NCBI GenBank assembly: GCA_903901425.1
Contig: CAIURC010000005.1
Span: forward strand, 1-64,000
Direction: 5' to 3'
Length of the DNA: 64,000 bases
DNA from: an uncultured Spartobacteria bacterium
GTDB lineage: Bacteria; Verrucomicrobiota; Verrucomicrobiia; Chthoniobacterales; Chthoniobacteraceae
The notes beneath the pieces are model-generated. The model worked only from the letters and a program-made list of their open reading frames with translations, made no database searches and was not told where the DNA came from. The translations under genes were made by a program, and so were the position numbers. Positions 20,927-34,547 of this stretch are shown piece by piece. The number at the start of each line of letters is the position of its first letter. The first letter of the stretch is position 1.

Positions 20927-22135
20927 TCAAATGGCCGCAGGCAATTGACGTTCGAAATCCTCGACGGACGCCGAACAGATGGCCGCCTCAAGGAGTTGGT
21001 CCAACGCAGGACCGGATTCGATAGCATGGATCCGGACCGCGATGTGTCCGGAAATTCTGTCCCGGATTGAGCGGGATGCCGAGCCATACCGGACCTCCAT
21101 TGCCCGCAGAATCGCCCGCCGCTTTTCCGCAAGGGCGCCTCGGTTTTCTCCCTCACGGATTCCCTCCTCCCGCCCTACCGCGTGACCTGCAGCATGACCT
21201 GCAGCGCGGCCCTCAGCCCAGCATTGTTCGGTGATGGTCATATACGCTTCCTCCAGTCTGGGTTCTCTGAGTTGTTCGATGTGGTGCCTCAGGGCCTCCC
21301 GGTCCCTGTTGCGTGACGCAATATAGCGCATCACCCGGTACAGTGCAGCCCCTGAAAGTTTCCGCCACTCCTCCACCCTCCATACCGGCTCGGACAACAA
21401 TTCACCCACGGCGTCCGCTTTCAAAACGCGCAGCGCCAGAATCCCTTCCGGCGTTCCCCGCAACTCCTCGTATCCGGTCCGGAATAACTCAATCACGCTG
21501 AATTCCAAACCCAATTGCCAGTGCTCATTCGGGTCGCCCGGCTCCAGTTCAATCAGGTCCCGCAGACGGGTCCCAGATTTCCACGGGGCGGCTCCTTGGT
21601 ACACCACCAGGGGAAACACCGGAGGCAATCGGCGAATCCCAGGGTGCTCCTGCCGGTGCCGGGCCCAGAGCCCGAGGATGTACCGCGCCAGCCGATAGGG
21701 CATGAACGGATCCTCCGTACTCTGGTGTTCTAGAAGGACGTACAGGTAGCATTCGGTGCCCCCACGCAGAAATTTGAATACCAAGTCGCTTTCAATCACC
21801 GCAAGGGCCGGGTCGATGAACGAACCGGGCACCCATTTCAGGCTTTCCCAGAGGATCATCCGCGTCACAGATTCCGGCAGGTGCCCCTCAAGGAATCCCC
21901 GGGCATTGGCCAGATCCGAAAACGTCCCCCGGAACAGCCGGTCGTGCGACTGGTGTAACGGATCCTCCGGACCGCTTCCTGCGTCGCTTTCTGAACCGGA
22001 TTTCGTTTGGCTTTCCGCTTCGCTTGCGGGCTCTCCTTTTGGTTTTTCCGGTCCTCCATTTGGGGCTGCGGGACCGTCCGGGGAAGGCGGGCTCCCGGGA
22101 AGATCCGGGCACTCTGGGTCAGGAAACTCTGGCAT
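20927..22135 (-). CDS. Rpn family PD-(D/E)XK nuclease / PF04754 transposase-like protein
   Basis: A 402-residue member of the Rpn (recombination-promoting nuclease) group. The nuclease core is HDRLFRGTFSDLANARGFLEGHLP followed by catalytic ESDLVFKF and YVLLEHQST, matching the D and E-x-Q positions of the PD-(D/E)XK fold. The N-terminal 65 residues are a Pro/Gly/Glu-rich low-complexity segment. The C-terminal helix has the usual degenerate repeat (GRAAGHAAGHAVGREEG). The frame opens at 22294, but ATG 22135 is preferred because GGGG lies nearby and the upstream stretch reads like non-coding sequence. Family members promote RecA-independent recombination, and many are variable islands. Confidence 0.85.
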   Translation of the reverse strand: MPEFPDPECPDLPGSPPSPDGPAAPNGGPEKPKGEPASEAESQTKSGSESDAGSGPEDPLHQSHDRLFRGTFSDLANARGFLEGHLPESVTRMILWESLKWVPGSFIDPALAVIESDLVFKFLRGGTECYLYVLLEHQSTEDPFMPYRLARYILGLWARHRQEHPGIRRLPPVFPLVVYQGAAPWKSGTRLRDLIELEPGDPNEHWQLGLEFSVIELFRTGYEELRGTPEGILALRVLKADAVGELLSEPVWRVEEWRKLSGAALYRVMRYIASRNRDREALRHHIEQLREPRLEEAYMTITEQCWAEGRAAGHAAGHAVGREEGIREGENRGALAEKRRAILRAMEVRYGSASRSIRDRISGHIAVRIHAIESGPALDQLLEAAICSASVEDFERQLPAAI

Positions 22136-22385
22136 GGCGTGATACCCCTGAAATCGGTCGGGCTGACCGGTCCGGATCCCTGGAAAGGCCATGGATGCGG
22201 TATCAGGCGGCGGCGAGCAACGGCGGCGAGCAATCGTCCCGGCAGCCATCTCAGGCGCGCTCAGGACGCAAGACCCGACACGCGGTCCCCACATCAGAGC
22301 ACCACCCTGCCCTGGCTGAGCAGCACTCTTCCTCCCGGCCCACCAGTCAAAGAGCCAGTCCGCAAGGTTTCCTCACCCCAGCAGG
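22136..22385. other. intergenic region upstream of the Rpn gene
   Basis: A 250-base region between the mnmA stop and the Rpn start, both minus-strand genes. It contains a 13-bp tandem repeat (22208-22233) and no convincing ORF. It should hold the Rpn promoter, but no clear -35/-10 pair was identified. Confidence 0.4.
22208..22233. repeat. perfect 13-bp tandem duplication CGGCGGCGAGCAA
   Basis: Two adjacent exact copies of CGGCGGCGAGCAA upstream of the Rpn-nuclease gene. It could be a slippage product or a site for a dimeric regulator; nothing decides between them. Confidence 0.8.
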
Positions 22386-23671: not shown

Positions 23672-25285
23672 GTGCACCGATTCCGATCCATTTTTTCGAT
23701 TCTAGCTACCCTCTGCTTCGGTCTCGGGGGATGCAACCGGGCCATGGACCGTGCCGATTTGGTGCTGCTCAACGGTTCGGAACCGGAAACGCTCGACCCG
23801 GCCCTGATCACTGGCCAACCCGAGGGCCGGGTCGCCTACGCCCTGTTTGAAGGACTTGCAGCCTACGACCATACCGGCACCCCACAACCCGGGGTCGCCG
23901 CGCGCTGGGAAACCTCCCCCGACGGACGCATCTACACCTTTCATCTCCGCCCGGAAGCGCGCTGGAGCAACGGCGACCCCGTTACATCCGCCGATTTTGT
24001 CCGCTCCTGGGAACGCACCCTGCGGCCCGTCACAGCTTCCGAATACGCCTACCAACTCCACTACGTCCGCAACGCCAAAGACTACAGCGAGGGGCGGCTC
24101 AAGGATTTTTCCCAAGTCGGCATCCAGGCTCCGGATCCGGCCACGCTCGTGGTCACGCTCGAAAACCCCACCCCCTTCTGGATTGATCTCTGCTGCTTCT
24201 CCACCCTCCTCCCGGTCCATGTGCCGTCCGTGGAAGCCTTGGAAAAAGAGGGGCGGGTTTTCACCAAACCCGGGCTGCTGGTCAGCAACGGAGCCTATGT
24301 GCTCAAGGAATGGCGGCTGTTCGACCGGATCCGCCTCGAAAAGAACCCGCATTATTGGAACCAGGGAAAGGTCGGGATGCGCACCGTGGATATCCTACCC
24401 GCCGCCAAGCCCATGACGGCCTTCAACTTCTATTCGACGGGCGTTGCTGACCTGCTCATGGACAAGGGTCTGGCTCCCTCCATGCTGATGGAACAACTGC
24501 GGAAACGCCTGGATTTCCATGCAGCACCGTTTCTGGGCAACTACTTTGTCCGATTCAACTGTTCCCGGAAGCCGTTCCAGGACCCGCGGGTGCGCCTGGC
24601 GTTCTCCCTCGTCATCGACAAACGGTACCTAACCGAACATATCAGCCGTGCGGGCGAGACCCCGGCGCACAGCCTGGTGCCCCCGGGCACTGCCGGGTAC
24701 GAACCGCCCCCCGGCTTGGAGCGGGACCCGGACCGTGCCCGAAAACTGCTCGCCGAGGCCGGCTATCCCGGCGGGAAAGGGTTTCCTTTGATTTCCTACT
24801 TGTTCAAGGGAGACAGCGACTTGGACCAGGGGATCGGGATCGAACTCCAGGCCATGTTCAAACGGGAACTGGGTGTTCACATGGAACTCGTCCAGCAGGA
24901 GTGGAAAGTGTACCTCAACTCCCTGAGTTCGCTGGACTACGACCTGTGCCGGTCCTCGTGGGTCGGAGATTACAAGGACCCAAACACGTTCATGGACATG
25001 TTCGTCACCGGCGGTGGCAACAATCGCACCGGCTGGAGCCATCCCAAGTACGATGCCCTCATCGCCCAAGCCGCCCGCGAACTCGACCCGAAGACCAGGT
25101 TCGCCCTGTTCCAAGAGGCCGAATCCATCCTGATCCGGTCCGAGGCACCCATCTGCCCCCTTTTCTACTATGTCGGAATCCAGTTCTATGACGGCTCAAA
25201 ACTCGGCGGTATCGCCGCAAACCTGATCGACGAGCACCCCATCAAAAACATGTTCTGGAAAGAACGCCCCACAGGCTCCCGCTGA
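23672..25285 (+). CDS. oligopeptide ABC transporter substrate-binding lipoprotein (SBP_bac_5)
   Basis: A 537-residue periplasmic binding protein of the OppA/DppA family. The signal peptide ends in lipobox LGGC (Cys21), so it is anchored to a membrane. Conserved features include NGSEPETLDPALITG, the LAAYDHTGTPQPGVAARWETSPDGRIYTFHLRP segment, WSNGDPVTSADFVRSWERTL, and the FNCSRKPFQDPRVRLAFSLVIDK domain. It should bind peptides for an Opp-type transporter, but no permease or ATPase genes lie nearby, so it is an orphan here. It starts at GTG 23672 and the fusion gene starts seven bases downstream. Confidence 0.88.
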   Translation: MHRFRSIFSILATLCFGLGGCNRAMDRADLVLLNGSEPETLDPALITGQPEGRVAYALFEGLAAYDHTGTPQPGVAARWETSPDGRIYTFHLRPEARWSNGDPVTSADFVRSWERTLRPVTASEYAYQLHYVRNAKDYSEGRLKDFSQVGIQAPDPATLVVTLENPTPFWIDLCCFSTLLPVHVPSVEALEKEGRVFTKPGLLVSNGAYVLKEWRLFDRIRLEKNPHYWNQGKVGMRTVDILPAAKPMTAFNFYSTGVADLLMDKGLAPSMLMEQLRKRLDFHAAPFLGNYFVRFNCSRKPFQDPRVRLAFSLVIDKRYLTEHISRAGETPAHSLVPPGTAGYEPPPGLERDPDRARKLLAEAGYPGGKGFPLISYLFKGDSDLDQGIGIELQAMFKRELGVHMELVQQEWKVYLNSLSSLDYDLCRSSWVGDYKDPNTFMDMFVTGGGNNRTGWSHPKYDALIAQAARELDPKTRFALFQEAESILIRSEAPICPLFYYVGIQFYDGSKLGGIAANLIDEHPIKNMFWKERPTGSR

Positions 25286-25292
25286 CCCGCGC

Positions 25293-27209
25293 ATGGACCG
25301 CCTTGTTTACCTCCTCTACTCCGCGATCCTTGCCGTGTTCCGGATCCTGCCGGCCACTGTCTGCGCCCGGATCGGACAGTGCATCGGAGTCCTCGCCTAC
25401 GTCGGCCTCCCCAAATACCGCCGGATCGCTGCTCGCAACCTCCGGATTGCATTTCCGGACATGCCAAAGGCCGAGCGCCGCTCCCTGTTGCGGCGCCATT
25501 TTCTGACCCTGGCGGAGAACCTCGCAGGCAGCCTGAAAGTGGCGACGCTTCCCCACGAAAAGCTGATGGCCTGCACTACGATCGAGGGGATGGAGCATGC
25601 TCAGGAGCAGGTGGCCCAAGGCCGGGGCTGCATCTGGGTCATTTGCCATCTGGGCAACTGGGAACTCCTCTCCCAGCTCTGGCCCCCTCTTTTTAAAACC
25701 AGCCAGAGCACCATCTACCAACGACTCAGCAATCCCCACATTGACGCCGCCGTCCGCGAAAGCCGGGCACGGCTCGGACTCACCCTCTTTGAACGCAAAG
25801 AAGGGTTTCAGGGCGCCATCCAACTCCTCCGCCAGGGCGGCGGTGTCGGCGTTCTGGTGGATCAACACGCCGGCGATGCCGGTGTCTGGTGCCCTTTCTT
25901 CCGGCGCCTCGCCTCCACCACTTCTCTCCCCGCAATGATGGCCCTGCGTTCCGGGGCCGCCCTCCTCCCCATCGGCGTCTTTTCCAACGGCCCCGGCAAA
26001 TGGCGCATCGTGGTCCGCAAAGCCATTGTGCCCGAAAGCCGTGACCCGGCCCAACTCACCGCCCAGATCAATCTCAACGTTCAAGCCCTGATCGAGTCCC
26101 AGCCTGCAGACTGGTTCTGGGTGCATAACCGCTGGAAAACCCCGCGCCCCAAGTTCCTTCTGTCCGACTACAAACGGGGGGTCGTTTCGGCTCCGGACCT
26201 GCAGCCCTTCCCGATCCTGATCCGGTCCAGCAACTGGCTCGGAGACGCCGTGATGAGCCTGCCGGCCCTCCAGGCAGTCCGCAGGGGAAGGCCAGACGCG
26301 CGGATCAGCGTCCTGACCCCGGCCAAACTCGCAGACTTCTGGCGGACGGTTCCCGAGGTCGACCAAGTCATTCCCATTCAAGGCGGCCTCTGGAGCACCG
26401 TGCGATCCATCCGCGACCAGTTTGAGGTCGCACTGGTCTTCCCCAATTCCTTCCGAACCGGCCTCGAGGTTTTTCTGGCCAGGATTCCGCGGCGGGTGGG
26501 TTACCCAGGCCATTCCAGAAGAGCACTACTCAACCAAGTTTTTGAGCCAAAAACAAAAAAGACCGCCGCGCCCCGGCACCAAGTCCATCACTATCTGGCA
26601 CTGGCCGAGTTTGTTGGGGCCGACACCAAAGGCGCCTTGGAGTCCATCGCCCGCGAACGCCCGGCTCCGACGGGCTCAAACCGCCCGCCGGTTCTTGGGC
26701 TCTGTCCAGGGGCGGAGTACGGCCCTGCCAAGCGCTGGCTGCCGGAACGGTACGCGGACGTCATGCACATTTTGCACGGGAAAACCGGGGCCCAATGGAA
26801 GGTGTTTGGGGTGGCAAAGGATCTCCCGATTGCAGAGCAGATTCTGGCGATTGCGGGCACCGGGACCAATCTGGTGGGCAAGACAAACCTGCGCGAACTG
26901 ATCGTTGAACTGCAATCCTGTGACGTCCTGCTCACCAACGACACTGGCACCATGCACCTTGCAGCGGCACTCGGCGTGCCTTTGGTGGCGGTTTTTGGAT
27001 CGACCGAACCCGCACTCACCGGGCCGCTGGGAACCCGTCACCGGATTGTCCGGCAGCATGTGGACTGCAGCCCCTGTTTTCTGAGGGAATGCCCGATTGA
27101 TTTTCGGTGCATGACCTCCATCACCATTCAGGAAGTGGTGACCGCCGTTGAATCCCTGCTCCCCGGGTCCACTGCGGGAGTTGAACAAAATCCCGCCCAA
27201 ACAGTCTGA
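25293..27209 (+). CDS. fusion: lipid A acyltransferase (LpxL/HtrB-type) + heptosyltransferase (WaaF, GT9)
   Basis: 638 residues with two complete enzyme domains. Residues 1-295 are an LpxL/HtrB-type lysophospholipid acyltransferase: N-terminal membrane anchor, then the H-x4-E motif HLGNWE (119-124), DQHAGDAGVWCPFF, and ADWFWVHNRWK. It transfers a fatty acyl chain to lipid A precursors at the inner membrane. Residues 307-638 are a GT9 heptosyltransferase II: ILIRSSNWLGDAVMSLPAL, PGAEYGPAKRWLPERYA, LLTNDTGTMHLAAALGVP and FGSTEPALTGPLG, with the CSPC/RECPIDFRC cysteines near the end. It adds heptose to the LPS inner core. Both domains carry their key motifs and there is no frameshift. The Bat operon starts 14 bases downstream. 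Confidence 0.9.
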   Translation: MDRLVYLLYSAILAVFRILPATVCARIGQCIGVLAYVGLPKYRRIAARNLRIAFPDMPKAERRSLLRRHFLTLAENLAGSLKVATLPHEKLMACTTIEGMEHAQEQVAQGRGCIWVICHLGNWELLSQLWPPLFKTSQSTIYQRLSNPHIDAAVRESRARLGLTLFERKEGFQGAIQLLRQGGGVGVLVDQHAGDAGVWCPFFRRLASTTSLPAMMALRSGAALLPIGVFSNGPGKWRIVVRKAIVPESRDPAQLTAQINLNVQALIESQPADWFWVHNRWKTPRPKFLLSDYKRGVVSAPDLQPFPILIRSSNWLGDAVMSLPALQAVRRGRPDARISVLTPAKLADFWRTVPEVDQVIPIQGGLWSTVRSIRDQFEVALVFPNSFRTGLEVFLARIPRRVGYPGHSRRALLNQVFEPKTKKTAAPRHQVHHYLALAEFVGADTKGALESIARERPAPTGSNRPPVLGLCPGAEYGPAKRWLPERYADVMHILHGKTGAQWKVFGVAKDLPIAEQILAIAGTGTNLVGKTNLRELIVELQSCDVLLTNDTGTMHLAAALGVPLVAVFGSTEPALTGPLGTRHRIVRQHVDCSPCFLRECPIDFRCMTSITIQEVVTAVESLLPGSTAGVEQNPAQTV

Positions 27210-27223
27210 GTCCTCGTAATCCC

Positions 27224-28210
27224 ATGTCCAGCACCCAAGATCTCACCCAACAAATCAAGGAATCCAGCCTCTGGGTTGCCTCGCTCCAGAACGAAGTGGC
27301 CCGGGTCGTGATTGGCCAGAAATATCTGGTCGACGGGCTGCTGGTGGGGCTGCTCACCAACGGCCACGTGCTCCTAGAGGGCGTGCCGGGCTTGGCCAAG
27401 ACCCTCACCGTGAAAACGCTGGCCGGCGCGATCCAGACCGGGTTCCAGCGGATCCAGTTCACCCCGGACCTTCTTCCGGCAGATCTGGTTGGGACCCTGA
27501 TCTACAACCCGCGCACCGGCGAGTTTACCACCAAACGCGGCCCCCTGTTTTCCAACCTGATTCTGGCTGACGAAATCAACCGGGCACCGGCCAAGGTCCA
27601 GAGTGCGCTGCTCGAGGCGATGCAGGAACGTCAGGTGACCTTGGGCGACCAGACCTACAAACTCCAGGACCCGTTTCTGGTGCTGGCCACCCAGAACCCG
27701 CTGGAACAGGAGGGCACCTACCAGTTGCCCGAGGCGCAGCTCGACCGGTTTCTGCTCAAACTCAAGGTCGGGTACCCCTCCAAAGCCGAGGAACGCCAAA
27801 TCCTCGATCTCATGGGCACCAGTGCCCCAAAACTGGAGGTCCAGCCCGTGATTGGTCCGGACGAAATCCTCCGGGCACGCGCTCTGGTCAACTCCGTTTA
27901 CGTGGATGACCGGGTCAAGGACTACATCGTGGACGTGGTGTTCGCGACGCGCGAACCGGCCACCTACAAACTCCAACTCGAGGGCCTCATCCGGTACGGC
28001 GCATCGCCCCGGGCCACCATCGCTCTCACCCTCGCGGCCAAAGCCCGCGCCTATCTGGCGGGACGCGGCTACGTCACCCCACAGGATGTCAAATCCGCCG
28101 GCCCCGATGTCCTCCGTCACCGCATCATGATCAGTTTCGAGGCCGAGGCCGAGGAAATCACGAGCGAAACCCTCATCCAACGCATCTTCGCCGGGTTGCC
28201 TGTCCCCTGA
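27224..28210 (+). CDS. moxR: MoxR-family AAA+ ATPase
   Basis: A 328-residue AAA+ chaperone-like ATPase. Walker A is GVPGLAKT (53-60), Walker B LILADEIN (112-119), with sensor 1 in LVLATQNPLEQEG, and the family signature LPEAQLDRFLLKLKVGYP. MoxR proteins act with vWA-domain proteins to mature or activate envelope or enzyme complexes. Here it is the first gene of the DUF58-DUF4381-BatA-BatBC-BatD-BatE series. It begins at ATG 27224, and the DUF58 gene follows only three bases after its stop, so it is clearly part of one transcription unit. Confidence 0.94.
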   Translation: MSSTQDLTQQIKESSLWVASLQNEVARVVIGQKYLVDGLLVGLLTNGHVLLEGVPGLAKTLTVKTLAGAIQTGFQRIQFTPDLLPADLVGTLIYNPRTGEFTTKRGPLFSNLILADEINRAPAKVQSALLEAMQERQVTLGDQTYKLQDPFLVLATQNPLEQEGTYQLPEAQLDRFLLKLKVGYPSKAEERQILDLMGTSAPKLEVQPVIGPDEILRARALVNSVYVDDRVKDYIVDVVFATREPATYKLQLEGLIRYGASPRATIALTLAAKARAYLAGRGYVTPQDVKSAGPDVLRHRIMISFEAEAEEITSETLIQRIFAGLPVP

Positions 28211-28213
28211 CCC

Positions 28214-29101
28214 ATGGAGTCCGTCCGCGAAATCCTGAGGAAAATCCGGCGCCTGGAAATCAAAACCCGGGGCATCGTGGACGCCGCATTCGCCGGCCAG
28301 TACCGCTCCGTGTTCAAGGGACGCGGGATGAATTTTGAGGAAGTGCGCGAGTACCAACCCGGGGACGAAGTCCGCACCATCGATTGGAATGTGACAGCCC
28401 GGTACGACGAACCCTACGTCAAAAAGTTCACCGAAGAACGCGAACTGAGCGTGATGCTGGTCGTGGACGTGTCCGCTTCCGGCAACTTCGGAAGCGTCCA
28501 CCTGAGCAAACGCGAGTTGGCCGCCGAGATTGCCTGTCTGCTCGCATTCAGCGCCATCCGAAACCAAGACAAGGTCGGTCTCCTCCTTTTCTCAGACCAC
28601 GTGGAGTGCGTCATTCCGCCCAGAAAAGGCCGAGGCCATGCACTCCGACTCATCCGCGAAATCCTCTTCTTCCAACCCAAAGGGCGCGGAACTGAACCCG
28701 GTGCCGCCCTCCATTACCTCAACCAGATCCTGCACCGACGCTCCATCGTGTTTCTCCTCTCCGATTTTCAGGCCCCAGACTTTTCCCGGGAACTGGCAAT
28801 CACGAGTCGCCGGCACGACCTGATCGCCCTCCCAATGCTGGATCCACGCGAGGAAATTCTGCCCGACATTGGCCGGGTGACTCTTGAAGACCCGGAAACC
28901 GGCGAGCAACTGGAGGTGAACACCTCCAACCCGGGCGTCCGCAAAGCCCACCAGCGCGCGTTTCTCCGGGCCCATCAGGAGCGACTGGCCCTGTTCCGCA
29001 AACTGCGAATCGACACCATCTCCCTCCACACCCACGCCGATTATCTCCCCGCTCTCCGCGGATTTTTCCGTACCCGGGAACGCCGGCTCCTCATCCGATG
29101 A
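28214..29101 (+). CDS. DUF58 vWA-like protein of the Bat operon
   Basis: A 295-residue soluble DUF58 protein. The YRSVFKGRGMNFEEVREYQPGDEVRTIDWNVTAR segment is diagnostic. It also has a metal-ion-dependent adhesion site DVSAS (85-89), so a von Willebrand factor A fold with Mg-dependent binding is likely. In MoxR operons, this protein is usually the direct partner of the ATPase. Its start is three bases after moxR, and its stop (TGA at 29099-29101) overlaps the ATG of the next gene, so translational coupling is likely. Confidence 0.9.
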   Translation: MESVREILRKIRRLEIKTRGIVDAAFAGQYRSVFKGRGMNFEEVREYQPGDEVRTIDWNVTARYDEPYVKKFTEERELSVMLVVDVSASGNFGSVHLSKRELAAEIACLLAFSAIRNQDKVGLLLFSDHVECVIPPRKGRGHALRLIREILFFQPKGRGTEPGAALHYLNQILHRRSIVFLLSDFQAPDFSRELAITSRRHDLIALPMLDPREEILPDIGRVTLEDPETGEQLEVNTSNPGVRKAHQRAFLRAHQERLALFRKLRIDTISLHTHADYLPALRGFFRTRERRLLIR

Positions 29102-29757
29102 CACCCCCGAGTTCACCGGAAGACCCCATCTTGCGCGCCTCCGCACACACCTTCCGCGGCGGAGTTGCCGGGCTGCCCGTTTGGATTGCCGCATCCCTGT
29201 GCCCGGTTCCGCTTCTTGCTGCCATCAAGTCCGCTCCTGCCCAGGGACAGACCGCCATTCCAGGAGCATCCCCGGCGGAACCGGTGCCCTCCATCGAAGA
29301 CATCGCACCACCGGTGGACGTTTTCCCCTACCCTCCCTGGATAGTGGGGTGTGCCGGTCTTCTCCTTCTGGTGGTTCTTTTTCTTTTCCTCCGCTGGTGG
29401 CGGAACCAGCGCCCCGCTCCGGCGCCGACGATCTCCCCGCGGACCGTCGCACTGGAAGCGCTCGCCCGACTCGGCGGCCAAGTCGAAACGGCAACCCCAT
29501 ACGCTTTCAGCATCGCAGTCAGCGACGTGGTCCGACAATTCGTGGAAGCCTCGACCGGGGTACATGCGGTGCGCCAAACTTCCGTGGAGTTCCTGGAATC
29601 CATTTCTCACCGGCTGTCTGGACCGGAACGGGATCTGCTCTCCGGATTTTTGGAGCGGTGCGACCTGATCAAGTTTGCGCAAGCCACGGCCTCCGCCTCC
29701 GACAGCCGCACCCTGCTCTCCAGCGCTCAATCCTTCGTCCAGGGACGCGTCCCGTAA
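29098..29757 (+). CDS. DUF4381-like membrane protein of the Bat operon
   Basis: 219 residues. A signal-like hydrophobic stretch (VAGLPVWIAASLCPVPLLAA) is followed by a proline-rich segment (PSIEDIAPPVDVFPYPPW) and one strong transmembrane helix (IVGCAGLLLLVVLFLFLRWW). The C-terminal part is a helical cytoplasmic domain (TVALEALARLGGQVET ... CDLIKFAQATAS), which resembles the DUF4381 proteins that occur between DUF58 and BatA in Bat operons. It starts in the ATGA overlap with the DUF58 gene. It may connect the ATPase partners to the membrane vWA proteins, but that is inference. Confidence 0.75.
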   Translation: MTPPSSPEDPILRASAHTFRGGVAGLPVWIAASLCPVPLLAAIKSAPAQGQTAIPGASPAEPVPSIEDIAPPVDVFPYPPWIVGCAGLLLLVVLFLFLRWWRNQRPAPAPTISPRTVALEALARLGGQVETATPYAFSIAVSDVVRQFVEASTGVHAVRQTSVEFLESISHRLSGPERDLLSGFLERCDLIKFAQATASASDSRTLLSSAQSFVQGRVP

Positions 29758-29767
29758 ACCCACCCCC

Positions 29768-30781
29768 GTGAATCCCAAGGAGACATTCGAATTCGCGCAT
29801 CCCTGGCTACTCCTGCTTCTGGGAATCCCGCTCGTTCTTCTCTGGCTACGCGGAAAACCCGGAGGCGCCCCCTCGCTGATCTTCTCCTCCCTGGCGCCCC
29901 TGCGTGCCTTGGCCTCGCCGCGCAGATCCCGCTCAGGAGCGCTTCTGGCAGGGCTTCTGGGGGGAGCGATGGTTTTTTTCATCGTTGCACTGGCCCGGCC
30001 CCGGATGGGCAGTTCGCATCAACGGATCCAGTCCAGCGGGATCGACATCCTCCTCGCTCTGGACGTTTCCCGCTCGATGCTCGCTGAGGATTTCACCATC
30101 GGCTCCGAACGCGCCAACCGCCTTCAGGCAGTCCAGAAAATCACCCGGGAATTCATCGAAAAACGGCCCGCGGACCGGATCGGCATCGTGGCTTTTGCCG
30201 GAAAACCGTACCTGGTCAGCCCACTGACCCTCGACCACGACTGGCTCCTTCAAAACCTCGACCGGCTCCGGATCGGCCTGGTGGAGGACGGCACCGCCAT
30301 CGGCTCCGCCATCGCTTCCGCCACCAACCGCCTCAAGGAACGCGAATCCAAAAGCCGGATCCTGGTTCTCCTCACCGACGGCGACAACAACGCCGGGAAA
30401 ATCACGCCCGCAACCGCTGCAGAAGCCGCCAAAACGCTGGGGGTCAAAATCTACACCATCTGCGCCGGATCCCGCGGCTATGCGCCCATCCCGGTGCCGG
30501 ACATGTTCGGCCGGATCGTCTACCGGAACATCAAGGTGGAGGTCGATGAGGCCACCCTCAAGCAAGTTGCCTCCATCGGAAACGGACAGTTTTTCCGGGC
30601 CGTGGACTCCGATTCGCTCGACTCGATTTTCCGACAGATTGATCAGCTTGAAAAAACCACGGTGGAGATGGACCGGTACTCGGTGTACCGGGAACTGTTT
30701 GCGTGGCCGGCCGGTGCCGGCCTTCTGCTTCTGTGCCTGCATCTGGTGCTTGGCCAAACCTTTCTCCGCCGACTCCCATGA
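29768..30781 (+). CDS. batA: BatA-type vWA membrane protein
   Basis: A 337-residue membrane protein. N-terminal FAHPWLLLLLGIPLVLLWL and LLAGLLGGAMVFFIVALARP are transmembrane segments, followed by a vWA domain with MIDAS DVSRS (99-103) and LLTDGDNNAGKITP, then a C-terminal transmembrane helix (FAWPAGAGLLLLCLHLVLG). This is the BatA layout of the aerotolerance operon. The frame opens at 29675, but GTG 29768, ten bases after the previous stop, gives the family N-terminus. Its stop overlaps the ATG of batBC (ATGA). The role of Bat proteins in stress tolerance is known only phenotypically in Bacteroides and Leptospira. Confidence 0.9.
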   Translation: MNPKETFEFAHPWLLLLLGIPLVLLWLRGKPGGAPSLIFSSLAPLRALASPRRSRSGALLAGLLGGAMVFFIVALARPRMGSSHQRIQSSGIDILLALDVSRSMLAEDFTIGSERANRLQAVQKITREFIEKRPADRIGIVAFAGKPYLVSPLTLDHDWLLQNLDRLRIGLVEDGTAIGSAIASATNRLKERESKSRILVLLTDGDNNAGKITPATAAEAAKTLGVKIYTICAGSRGYAPIPVPDMFGRIVYRNIKVEVDEATLKQVASIGNGQFFRAVDSDSLDSIFRQIDQLEKTTVEMDRYSVYRELFAWPAGAGLLLLCLHLVLGQTFLRRLP

Positions 30782-32736
30782 ACGCGCCTCTTCTCTTTGC
30801 AGAGCCTTTGTGGCTGTGGGCCGCCCTCCTGCTCCCGGCCGCGCTGCTCCTCCTCTTCATCCGGAACCAGCGAAAGATCCGTCCCCTGCTCCTCCAGGTC
30901 GTGGCCTCCAGACTTCAGAAACGGCTCCTCCACTCTCCCAGTCCGGCAAGACGCTGGGCCCACTTCCTTCTGCTCCTCGCGGGAACCGCGTGTGCGGCCC
31001 TCGCACTGGCCCGTCCCCAGCTGGGCGATGACTGGCTCGAGGTTTCCAGAAGCGGACGCGACATCCTCATTGCCGTGGATACCTCCAAAAGCATGCTGGC
31101 CACAGACCTCGCCCCGGATCGACTCACCCGCGCCAAAATGGCCGCACGGGATCTGATCACCCGCCTCCCCGGAGACCGGGTCGGGCTCGTTGCGTTTTCT
31201 GGCACCGCTTTTCTTCAAGCCCCACTCACCATTGACCACGATGCAGTCCTTCATTCCGTAGACGAACTCGACACGGAAATCGTCCCGCAAGGTGGAACCA
31301 ACCTTGCAGCGGCAATCCGCCTGGCCAAAGAGGCTTTCGGAAAAGGCGAGGGCGAAAGCCGGGCCCTGATTTTCCTGACCGATGGCGAGGATCTGGAAGC
31401 CGATGGGCTCGCCAGCGCCGAACAGGCCAAAGGGTTGTTCCGGATCTTTACCGTCGGCCTCGGATCCCCAGATGGATCGCTCATCCCTCTGAAGGGGGGG
31501 CGCGGCAGCGAATTCCTCAAAGATCCCAATGGCCAGATCGTCAAGTCCCGGCTTGATGAAGACGGTCTTTCCAAAATTGCAGCCGCTACTGGGGGATTCT
31601 ACACTCGGCTTGACCGCGGTCCCGCCGTGGCCGAACACCTTGTCAAAGACGGCTTGGCTCAAATGAACGCCCAACAGTTCGACGCAAAAACCTCCCGGCG
31701 CCCCATCGAACGCTTCCAGTGGCCTCTCGCCGCTGCTCTGGCCGCCGTTGCCGCCTCCTTTCTGACCGGCGAAAACCGCAAGGTGCCCCCCCAAAAAAAC
31801 CGTCCGCACGGGAAGGCCCGGCTGCCTGAATCCCAGGTTGCCGCCGCAGCAGCCGTTGCGCTCCTTCTCCTCGGGGCTTCTCAGACACTTTCCGCGAAAA
31901 ACTCGGCTCTCCAAGCCTACGAACGCGGCGATTACAAGGAGGCGGCGGACTCGTTCAAGCGCCAACTCCAACTCCAACCCGGCTCACTTCCACTCCGGTT
32001 CGGCTTGGGCACTGCCGCCTACCAGTCCGGTGACTACGATGCTGCCCTTGAGGAGTTCAGCCAAGCCTCCACCTCCGAGGACCCGAAGCTCAGACAACTG
32101 GCCGAGTACAATCTGGGCAATACCCTCTACCAGCGCGGCGCCACACGGCAGAATCCCGAGGACAAAATCGCGGAATGGAAAAACGCCGTCCAACACTACG
32201 AACAATCCCTTGAAATCAACCCGTCGGATGCGCGGTCCCAAAAAAATCTGGATACCGTCCGCAAGCTGATTGAGGAAGCCGAAAAGAAACAGAAGGATCA
32301 ACAGCAGAAACAGCAGGGGGGCGAGGACAACAAAGACGACTCCAAGGAAAAAAAAGATCAGGATTCCTCCTCTGAATCCAAAGAGTCGCCGGAGGACAAA
32401 TCCGGCGAGGAAAAGGAGGACGGCAAGGATGACAAGCCGGGCAAAAAATCCGGCGACGCCAAGGACGCCTCCTCTAAACCCGATCCCAAAGACGGCGAGG
32501 CCCAGAAGACGCAGTCCAAACCCGAGGGCAACCTTCAGAACCAGCCGCAGTTTGGCGAGGACCAGAAGGCGAAAGACGCCCGTGAGGAGGCAGACAACGC
32601 GCAGGCGGCAGCCGAGGGCAAAATGACCCCCCAACAGGCAAAAGCCCTTTTGGAATCCCTCCGCAACGAGGATCAGCCGGTGCAACTCATTGAAAAAAAC
32701 CGGGCTCAGAAAGGAAAATCCCTCCGCGACTGGTAG
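30778..32736 (+). CDS. BatB-BatC fusion: vWA membrane domain plus TPR and charged tail
   Basis: 652 residues. Residues 1-350 are BatB: hydrophobic N-terminus (PLWLWAALLLPAALLLLFIRN), vWA with DTSKS (101-105) and IFLTDGEDLEADGL, then a transmembrane helix (WPLAAALAAVAASFLTG). Next come a second hydrophobic segment (VAAAAAVALLLLGASQTLSA), three TPR-like units (ALQAYERGDYKEAADSFKRQ, GLGTAAYQSGDYDAALEEFS), and a long Lys/Glu/Asp/Ser-rich stretch of low complexity. The C-terminus QQAKALLESLRNEDQ... LRDW matches the BatC end. So batB and batC, separate in Bacteroides and Leptospira, are one gene here. It overlaps batA by four bases. BatD starts 17 bases downstream. Confidence 0.85.
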   Translation: MNAPLLFAEPLWLWAALLLPAALLLLFIRNQRKIRPLLLQVVASRLQKRLLHSPSPARRWAHFLLLLAGTACAALALARPQLGDDWLEVSRSGRDILIAVDTSKSMLATDLAPDRLTRAKMAARDLITRLPGDRVGLVAFSGTAFLQAPLTIDHDAVLHSVDELDTEIVPQGGTNLAAAIRLAKEAFGKGEGESRALIFLTDGEDLEADGLASAEQAKGLFRIFTVGLGSPDGSLIPLKGGRGSEFLKDPNGQIVKSRLDEDGLSKIAAATGGFYTRLDRGPAVAEHLVKDGLAQMNAQQFDAKTSRRPIERFQWPLAAALAAVAASFLTGENRKVPPQKNRPHGKARLPESQVAAAAAVALLLLGASQTLSAKNSALQAYERGDYKEAADSFKRQLQLQPGSLPLRFGLGTAAYQSGDYDAALEEFSQASTSEDPKLRQLAEYNLGNTLYQRGATRQNPEDKIAEWKNAVQHYEQSLEINPSDARSQKNLDTVRKLIEEAEKKQKDQQQKQQGGEDNKDDSKEKKDQDSSSESKESPEDKSGEEKEDGKDDKPGKKSGDAKDASSKPDPKDGEAQKTQSKPEGNLQNQPQFGEDQKAKDAREEADNAQAAAEGKMTPQQAKALLESLRNEDQPVQLIEKNRAQKGKSLRDW

Positions 32737-32753
32737 CCTCGCCCCGTGTCCGA

Positions 32754-34547
32754 ATGATTTTTTACAAAGTCAGTCCCAGCTCCCTGAGTCCCGCACTCCT
32801 TCTGCGCATCCTCGCCCTGCTTCTGCTGACGCTCGGCCAAAACGTCTGTCTGGCTGCGGGCAACACCAAGGTCACTGCCAGTCTTTCGGACCCTTCGGTT
32901 GCTCCCGGGGAATCCACCACTCTCATCCTGAGCATCGAGAACGGCGGCGGACTCACTGAAATTCCAAACCTGAAAGCCACCGGACTCCGGATCGAGTTCC
33001 GCGGCCAGTCGTTTCAAACCCGGATTGAAAACTTCACGGCCACCCAGTCTCTGGACCTGACCTATGAGGTCTCCGGGGATGCTGCGGGAACCTACACCAT
33101 CCCCGCCACCCCCGTGCCCACGGAAAACGGTATTTTTCACACCCCGCCGCTCCAGCTGGTGGTTCAATCTGGCACTCAGTCGCGCTCAAATGCAGCGACG
33201 TCCCTCGCTGAAATCTCGGTCCCGAAGACCTCCGCATACCTCGGCGAATCTATTCCTGCAGAAATTCGGCTCCTGGTGGACTCCCGGATCCGCTGGGAAC
33301 CTGAATCCCGGCCGAATCTGGAGGGCGAAGGCTTCACCCGCTTCAAGATGCCCAGCCCCACCGTTGAAAAAACCTTGAGGGACGGCATTTCCTACGATGT
33401 CCTGATCTTCCGGACCGTGCTCACCCCAAGCAAAGCCGGGAAACTCTCGATTGGACCCTGTGAGATCCGGTTCCGCGCAGAGTCCCAACAAAACCGATCC
33501 CGCTCCCCAGTGGACAGCCTGCTCGGCCAGTTTTTCGCAGGAACACAGGTCCGGTCGTATTCCGCCAAGGCACCTGCGGTGGAACTGGATGTAAAACCCT
33601 TGCCCGTGGAGGGACGCCCCGAGGATTTTTCGGGAGCCGTGGGTATTTTCCAAATGCAGGCGGTTGCGTCTCCGTCCAAAGTGAAACTGGGTGACCCGAT
33701 CACTTTGCAGACGACCATCTCAGGTCGGGGGAACTTCGACCGGGTCAATGCCCCCGAACTGGAGCGCGCGCAAGGCTGGAACGTTTACCCTGCAAAATCG
33801 GATTTTCAGCCCGAGGAAGAACTGGGAATGAACGGCCGCAAAATCTTCGAGCAGGCACTGATTGCGGAATCTCCCCAAACCCGGCTTCCCGAACTCAGGT
33901 TCAGTTTTTTCAACCCGGAAACACAGGCCTACGAAACCCTCAAGAGCGGTCTGACCCCGATCTCAATCGAGGGGATTGTGCCTCCTCCTCAGCCCGTGTT
34001 GGCACAGTCGCCCGATGGACCGGGTAGCTCAAAAGAGCCAACCCCATCCCAGCCCGTTTTGCTGCACGGCCCAAAATCTGACTTCGGAATCCCATACGCC
34101 ACCCTGGCTCCTCCTGCTTGGCCCCGCCACCTCCTCTGGCTCCAGATCCCCCCGGCCCTCGCTCTTGCCCTCCTCTGGTACAGAAAATCCGTACGGCCAT
34201 CCCCCGCCAGACTGGCTCGAAAAAAACTTCTCCAAGAACTTGCACAGATCGAGTCCCGTCTTCAGGAGGAAACCAGCCGCGCAGGGTTCTACTCAACTGC
34301 CGTTCGTGCAATCCAGATCCATGCCGCGCTCAAGGCCCAACTGCCAGACAACGCAATCGACCTCCAGACCCTGCAGGCCAAGTTCCCAGCCCGGTCGTTT
34401 GAAGCCGTCCTTCCCATCTTTGACACCCGAAACGAACTTCTTTATGCGGGGAACCAACGACCGACCTCCCGGGATTCCCTGCAGGAAAAGGAGCGCGAAT
34501 CCGTGCTCGAAAAAATCCAGACATTCAAATCAGCCTTGGCCCAATGA
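32754..34547 (+). CDS. batD: BatD-like exported protein
   Basis: A 597-residue protein. A signal peptide (ALLLRILALLLLTLGQNVCLA) is followed by immunoglobulin-like beta domains (KVTASLSDPSVAPGESTTLILSIENG, VVASPSKVKLGDPITLQTTISGRGNFDRVNAPEL) typical of the BatD/DUF4381-containing oxygen-tolerance protein (PF13584). A transmembrane helix (LLWLQIPPALALALLWYRK) and a helical cytoplasmic tail follow. BatD is thought to sit mostly in the periplasm and join the BatA/BatB vWA proteins. The gene starts 17 bases after batBC, and its stop overlaps the batE ATG by four bases. Confidence 0.88.
   Translation: MIFYKVSPSSLSPALLLRILALLLLTLGQNVCLAAGNTKVTASLSDPSVAPGESTTLILSIENGGGLTEIPNLKATGLRIEFRGQSFQTRIENFTATQSLDLTYEVSGDAAGTYTIPATPVPTENGIFHTPPLQLVVQSGTQSRSNAATSLAEISVPKTSAYLGESIPAEIRLLVDSRIRWEPESRPNLEGEGFTRFKMPSPTVEKTLRDGISYDVLIFRTVLTPSKAGKLSIGPCEIRFRAESQQNRSRSPVDSLLGQFFAGTQVRSYSAKAPAVELDVKPLPVEGRPEDFSGAVGIFQMQAVASPSKVKLGDPITLQTTISGRGNFDRVNAPELERAQGWNVYPAKSDFQPEEELGMNGRKIFEQALIAESPQTRLPELRFSFFNPETQAYETLKSGLTPISIEGIVPPPQPVLAQSPDGPGSSKEPTPSQPVLLHGPKSDFGIPYATLAPPAWPRHLLWLQIPPALALALLWYRKSVRPSPARLARKKLLQELAQIESRLQEETSRAGFYSTAVRAIQIHAALKAQLPDNAIDLQTLQAKFPARSFEAVLPIFDTRNELLYAGNQRPTSRDSLQEKERESVLEKIQTFKSALAQ

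Follow-up and report, generated by a model that had tools for sequence, protein, structure and literature searches.

A lipid A acyltransferase fused to a WaaF-type heptosyltransferase across the class Verrucomicrobiae, with a degenerate form in Akkermansiaceae

Textbooks assign the acylation of lipopolysaccharide (LPS) and the glycosylation of its core to separate enzymes. The secondary acyltransferases of lipid A, LpxL and LpxM (PF03279; A. baumannii LpxM, PDB 5kn7), are known as stand-alone proteins of about 300 residues. Heptosyltransferase II (WaaF/RfaF, TIGR02195; E. coli structure 1psw) is known as a separate soluble protein; in E. coli, the first heptose is added by WaaC and the second by WaaF (PMC6286764). 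In the gene described here, a GT9 glycosyltransferase domain follows the acyltransferase domain, so that a WaaF-type protein is tethered to an acyltransferase. No description of this fusion was found in the literature searched on the fusion itself, verrucomicrobial LPS and the Akkermansia acyltransferase; subscription papers and domain-architecture databases lay outside that search. Judged by sequence, these are known enzymes in an arrangement that we have not found described, with a degenerate form in Akkermansia.

The fused gene occupies positions 25293..27209 (+) of the window, the whole 64,000-nucleotide stretch that was analysed. Its frame encodes 638 residues and is unbroken, with no internal stop. 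The original prediction of an LpxL and a heptosyltransferase on a single polypeptide at these coordinates was confirmed, as one frame holds both domains and the arrangement is conserved class-wide. Both domains are complete, as had been proposed, with the catalytic residues H119/E124, D318 and D550/T551/H555 all intact. The junction, previously placed near codon 300, comprises residues 284–305.

The N-terminal half starts with a hydrophobic segment (residues 2–18, 25296..25346, +) that is helical in the AlphaFold2 model and is probably a membrane-attachment helix, by analogy with LpxL and LpxM. The lipid A secondary acyltransferase domain (PF03279, E 1.1e-52) covers residues 7–283 (25311..26141, +). 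It scores 179.5 bits against a gathering score of 22.3 and is nearly full length (profile positions 17–295 of 295). The catalytic dyad H119-x4-E124 (HLGNWE, 25647..25664, +) is kept in all 123 non-identical fusions, including those of Akkermansiaceae. The half shares with LpxL and LpxM the fold, the dyad and the full-length domain, and in the model it superimposes on LpxM 5kn7 with a Z score of 28.8 and an rmsd of 2.1 over 250 residues. By fold, mycobacterial PatA is about as good a match. The nearest solved structures to the whole protein by sequence are WaaF 1psw, PatA and LpxM, the latter found with an E value of 4.2e-10. None of the curated NCBI cut-offs for LpxL or LpxM is passed (best NF006270, 139.5 bits against 248; TIGR02207, 121.3 bits against 297.8). 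The half is therefore filed under PF03279 only, with neither chain nor position specificity assignable.

The C-terminal half, a GT9 domain of the heptosyltransferase II (WaaF) type, covers residues 306–623 (26208..27161, +). It is recognized by TIGR02195 over residues 308–623 (profile positions 2–338 of 339) with 211 bits, where the cut-off is 134.6, and by PF01075 over residues 368–602 (E 2.9e-41). WaaF 1psw is the closest solved structure, with 35% identity over 305 residues and a sequence-search E value of 3.5e-38; the model matches it with a Z score of 23.7 and an rmsd of 2.9 over 305 residues. The GT-B fold is present with D318, the putative catalytic aspartate of GT9 (NWLGD, 26244..26246, +), K480, and the sugar-nucleotide motif D550-T551-G552...H555 (DTGTMH within NDTGTMHLAA, 26940..26957, +, located in the alignment of fusions). 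The fold, these motifs and a C-terminal CSPC...CP...CM motif are common to WaaF. D318 is kept in every intact fusion outside Akkermansiaceae. D318, K480, D550, T551 and H555 are retained in the Chthoniobacterales, the Verrucomicrobiaceae-like group and two further groups (f17 and f22). The set is complete in 93 of 94 Chthoniobacterales-and-other rows of the alignment, the single miss being a gap in an incomplete row, and in 11 of 11 Verrucomicrobiaceae-like rows.

The two halves are joined by a linker of 22 residues (284–305, 26142..26207, +), delimited from the alignment of fusions. P284, P286, F288, L289, R295 and G296 are invariant across 44 fusions (that of the window and 43 from named contigs), and in the same set the linker has a mean conservation of 0.67, the two domains 0.63 and 0.66. 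Separate translation of the glycosyltransferase half from an internal start was considered and is not favoured: the window's linker contains no in-frame ATG, GTG or TTG, and in the 67 of 137 relatives that do have ATG or GTG codons in this region, these occupy no fixed place among the rows listed. The AlphaFold2 model of the full-length protein has a pLDDT of 91.8 and a pTM of 0.90. As the linker itself is modelled with a pLDDT near 87–88, the two halves are predicted to be held in a defined arrangement.

The window genome was searched for the partners of both reactions. It encodes three proteins with PF03279: the fusion, a separate LpxL-like protein on contig C151, and an LpxL-like domain on contig C12. 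The last belongs to a second fusion (G000:C12:47037-47858, in a frame of 1081 residues), in which an LpxL-family acyltransferase follows an RND/MMPL (HAE3/HpnN-like) transporter. Of the separate lpxL and waaF genes that might have been expected elsewhere, LpxL-family members thus exist, but no other GT9 protein passes the TIGR02195 cut-off among the four scanned against NCBIfam; the remaining two places are weak. The fused half is hence the only strong candidate for heptosyltransferase II. WaaA is present, as it is in one copy in each of 93 of 93 class genomes searched. The gmhA and hldE genes of core-heptose synthesis, also raised in the original prediction, are represented by a GmhA-like candidate (176 bits) and an HldE-domain-II-like candidate matching rfaE domain II (170 bits), both of which fall below their NCBI cut-offs of 209.45 and 181.5. 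A WaaC-like GT9 protein on contig C171 likewise scores 130 bits, below 185.3.

The gene lies between an SBP_bac_5 solute-binding protein gene (23672..25285, +), which ends 7 bp before its start, and a MoxR AAA ATPase gene (27224..28210, +), which begins 14 bp after its stop. The latter is the first gene of a MoxR–DUF58–BatA-type–BatD series that spans 27224-34547 (+), directly 3' of the fusion. The SBP_bac_5 neighbour recurs in relatives (for instance loci L042–L047, L049–L051, L054, L108 and L121), and MoxR and DUF58 adjoin the fusion in several Chthoniobacteraceae. The MoxR–DUF58–Bat series has no obvious role in LPS. A YhgA-like protein of the Rpn family (PF04754) is encoded nearby at 20927-22294 (-).

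With no other GT9 protein above the WaaF cut-off, and with WaaA and the GmhA-like, HldE-domain-II-like and WaaC-like candidates at hand, the fusion is likely a bifunctional LPS enzyme, performing secondary acyl transfer and heptose transfer and probably derived from an lpxL-waaF pair; we put the probability of this reading at about 0.75. That one protein may serve both steps, as first suggested, is the best reading because the families are the right ones, all catalytic residues are in place, and conservation of the fusion extends to a linker specific to it. The LpxL-type half would reside on the inner membrane and use H119 and E124 to acylate Kdo-lipid A with a secondary chain. The WaaF-type half would draw on ADP-heptose to add L,D-heptose to the inner core, and the short conserved linker would keep it at the same membrane surface. 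As the acylation and WaaF steps are not consecutive in E. coli, WaaC acting in between, a simple hand-over of substrate is not expected, and any benefit of the tether more likely lies in membrane recruitment or coordination than in direct channelling.

The Akkermansiaceae depart from this picture. In their fusions, D318 is replaced by E or A, K480/R481 by S, N or E and by E, T551 by G, and H555 by S or A, and other members retain only a remnant of the glycosyltransferase half. A homologue from the Akkermansia group yields no match to TIGR02195 up to an E value of 1e-5; it thus has neither an equivalog-level score nor the catalytic residues of heptosyltransferase II. Among ten Akkermansia-group genomes, dN/dS is about 0.08–0.22 for the degenerate half and about 0.07–0.16 for the acyltransferase half, as computed by the Nei-Gojobori method on pairs that are not independent. 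These values indicate that the degenerate half is still constrained by purifying selection. The fusion can therefore persist with a glycosyltransferase half that is not catalytic. In one locus of the Akkermansia group (L164, G079:C1), the two halves are found in two overlapping frames, which represents a secondary split or a frameshift. Two Akkermansiaceae genomes with a truncated fused half (L191, G228:C3:331039-331425; L192, G302:C1:3003663-3004052) carry a separate GT9 protein of about 316–319 residues; that of L191 looks WaaF-like, with altered motifs.

These observations would suit a protein that is mainly an acyltransferase everywhere, its GT9 half being, as is apparently the case in Akkermansiaceae, a structural or substrate-binding module, even where the catalytic residues are intact. 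For the window lineage this is unlikely, as all catalytic residues are kept there across deep divergence and the half scores above the equivalog cut-off for WaaF, as no other scanned GT9 protein of the genome does. A combination of both roles is conceivable: the fused WaaF half would perform catalysis and also support the acyltransferase, and Akkermansiaceae would have kept only the support, as a pseudo-glycosyltransferase on a lipid A acyltransferase. This proposal is tentative, and we would give it slightly less than even odds.

One of the genomes was identified as A. muciniphila, as its M60 protein matches chain 7sci in 253 of 253 residues; we take this chain to be AM0627 of that species. 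The Akkermansia-group genomes searched hold one other clear GT9 protein, and the one read has intact motifs. In two published reports, the core of A. muciniphila contains one heptose (PMC13135019, PMC12527988), which fits one active heptosyltransferase. The second report also describes an acyltransferase, JFJHEM_01585, that is 23.7% identical to LpxL and possibly new, and the lack of LpxM (PMC12527988). JFJHEM_01585 is probably the acyltransferase half of the same fusion; no GT9 domain is mentioned on it in the passages considered here, whereas the fusion described here carries one. Three metagenome bins titled Akkermansia muciniphila (L101, L102 and L109) contain a fusion about 46–48% identical to that of the window. 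The L101 motifs are intact in the glycosyltransferase half, unlike those of the genome identified as A. muciniphila, and the three bin names are probably wrong.

Alternatively, both halves may be enzymes, with the GT9 half adding another sugar, or a heptose elsewhere. GT9 is a mixed family, and the heptose-pathway matches of the window genome fall short of their cut-offs. This is quite improbable, given the WaaF equivalog score of 211 bits, the position of WaaF as the closest solved structure, and the presence of WaaA with candidates for the heptose pathway.

The fusion is not peculiar to the window genome but is a class-wide trait, old and widespread in Verrucomicrobiae. A single frame was found at 43–62% identity in most relatives of the same order and in 80 named Verrucomicrobiota contigs, the best named relatives being Chthoniobacteraceae. 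With a class-wide profile, the full fusion was counted by hand in one frame in about 80 of 189 genomes of the class, among the rows listed. Carriers include the isolate Chthoniobacter flavus Ellin428, whose fused domains are identical to those of a genome from the same family as the window genome (G018), and Verrucomicrobium. The identity with G018 puts the window genome in the family of C. flavus. The exceptions among near relatives (G330, G366 and G402) are due to a frame break or contig ends. The search of genomes for the same fusion that the original prediction proposed thus gave a phylogenetic span: among the matches listed from 288 genomes of the phylum, all full-length ones are in the same class, and those outside it cover the glycosyltransferase half only, mostly in frames of about 340–500 residues. 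Horizontal spread or plasmid copies were considered and rejected: plasmid records contain only separate halves, and none of them spans 80% of the fusion query.

In eight genomes of the class outside the main fused orders, lpxL and waaF are neighbours on one strand, in that order. Relative to the lpxL stop, the best waaF start is found at -4, -4, +1, +1, +2, +3, +5 and +24 bp; at two loci (L240 and L241) both genes are in the same frame with one TAA between them. In Methylacidiphilaceae-like genomes and the loci examined from other classes, the glycosyltransferase gene has no lpxL neighbour. The tight neighbours suggest that the source was an operon pair, and the fusion most likely arose from such a closely spaced lpxL-waaF pair; the spacing and shared frames would fit two translationally coupled genes of which the first lost its stop codon. 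Trees built from either half recover the same main groups. With Akkermansiaceae left out, a tree that keeps the fused glycosyltransferase domains in one group, as a single origin would require, is not rejected by the AU test (p 0.18). The best tree requires at least four changes between the fused and separate states, and one fused sequence (G341) is placed inside the neighbour-gene clade. Loss, fission or repeated fusion may each account for these changes. That an assembly artefact or chance read-through joined two genes in the window has a negligible probability: one lost stop could join the genes of L240 or L241, but the same single frame is conserved across relatives, isolate included, and the linker is itself conserved, which rules out a missed stop.

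The LPS enzymology of Verrucomicrobiota is poorly known, and the class-wide fusion offers a handle on a possible coupling of lipid A acylation with core assembly in this phylum. From the sequence of the glycosyltransferase half, it can be predicted which lineages add a second heptose to the core. Akkermansia is an important gut commensal, and its LPS, which is hypo-acylated and has one heptose, is being actively studied; a conserved degenerate glycosyltransferase domain is flagged here on its presumed LpxL. If this domain is indeed a pseudo-glycosyltransferase, the presence of a single heptose in the core of A. muciniphila would be explained.
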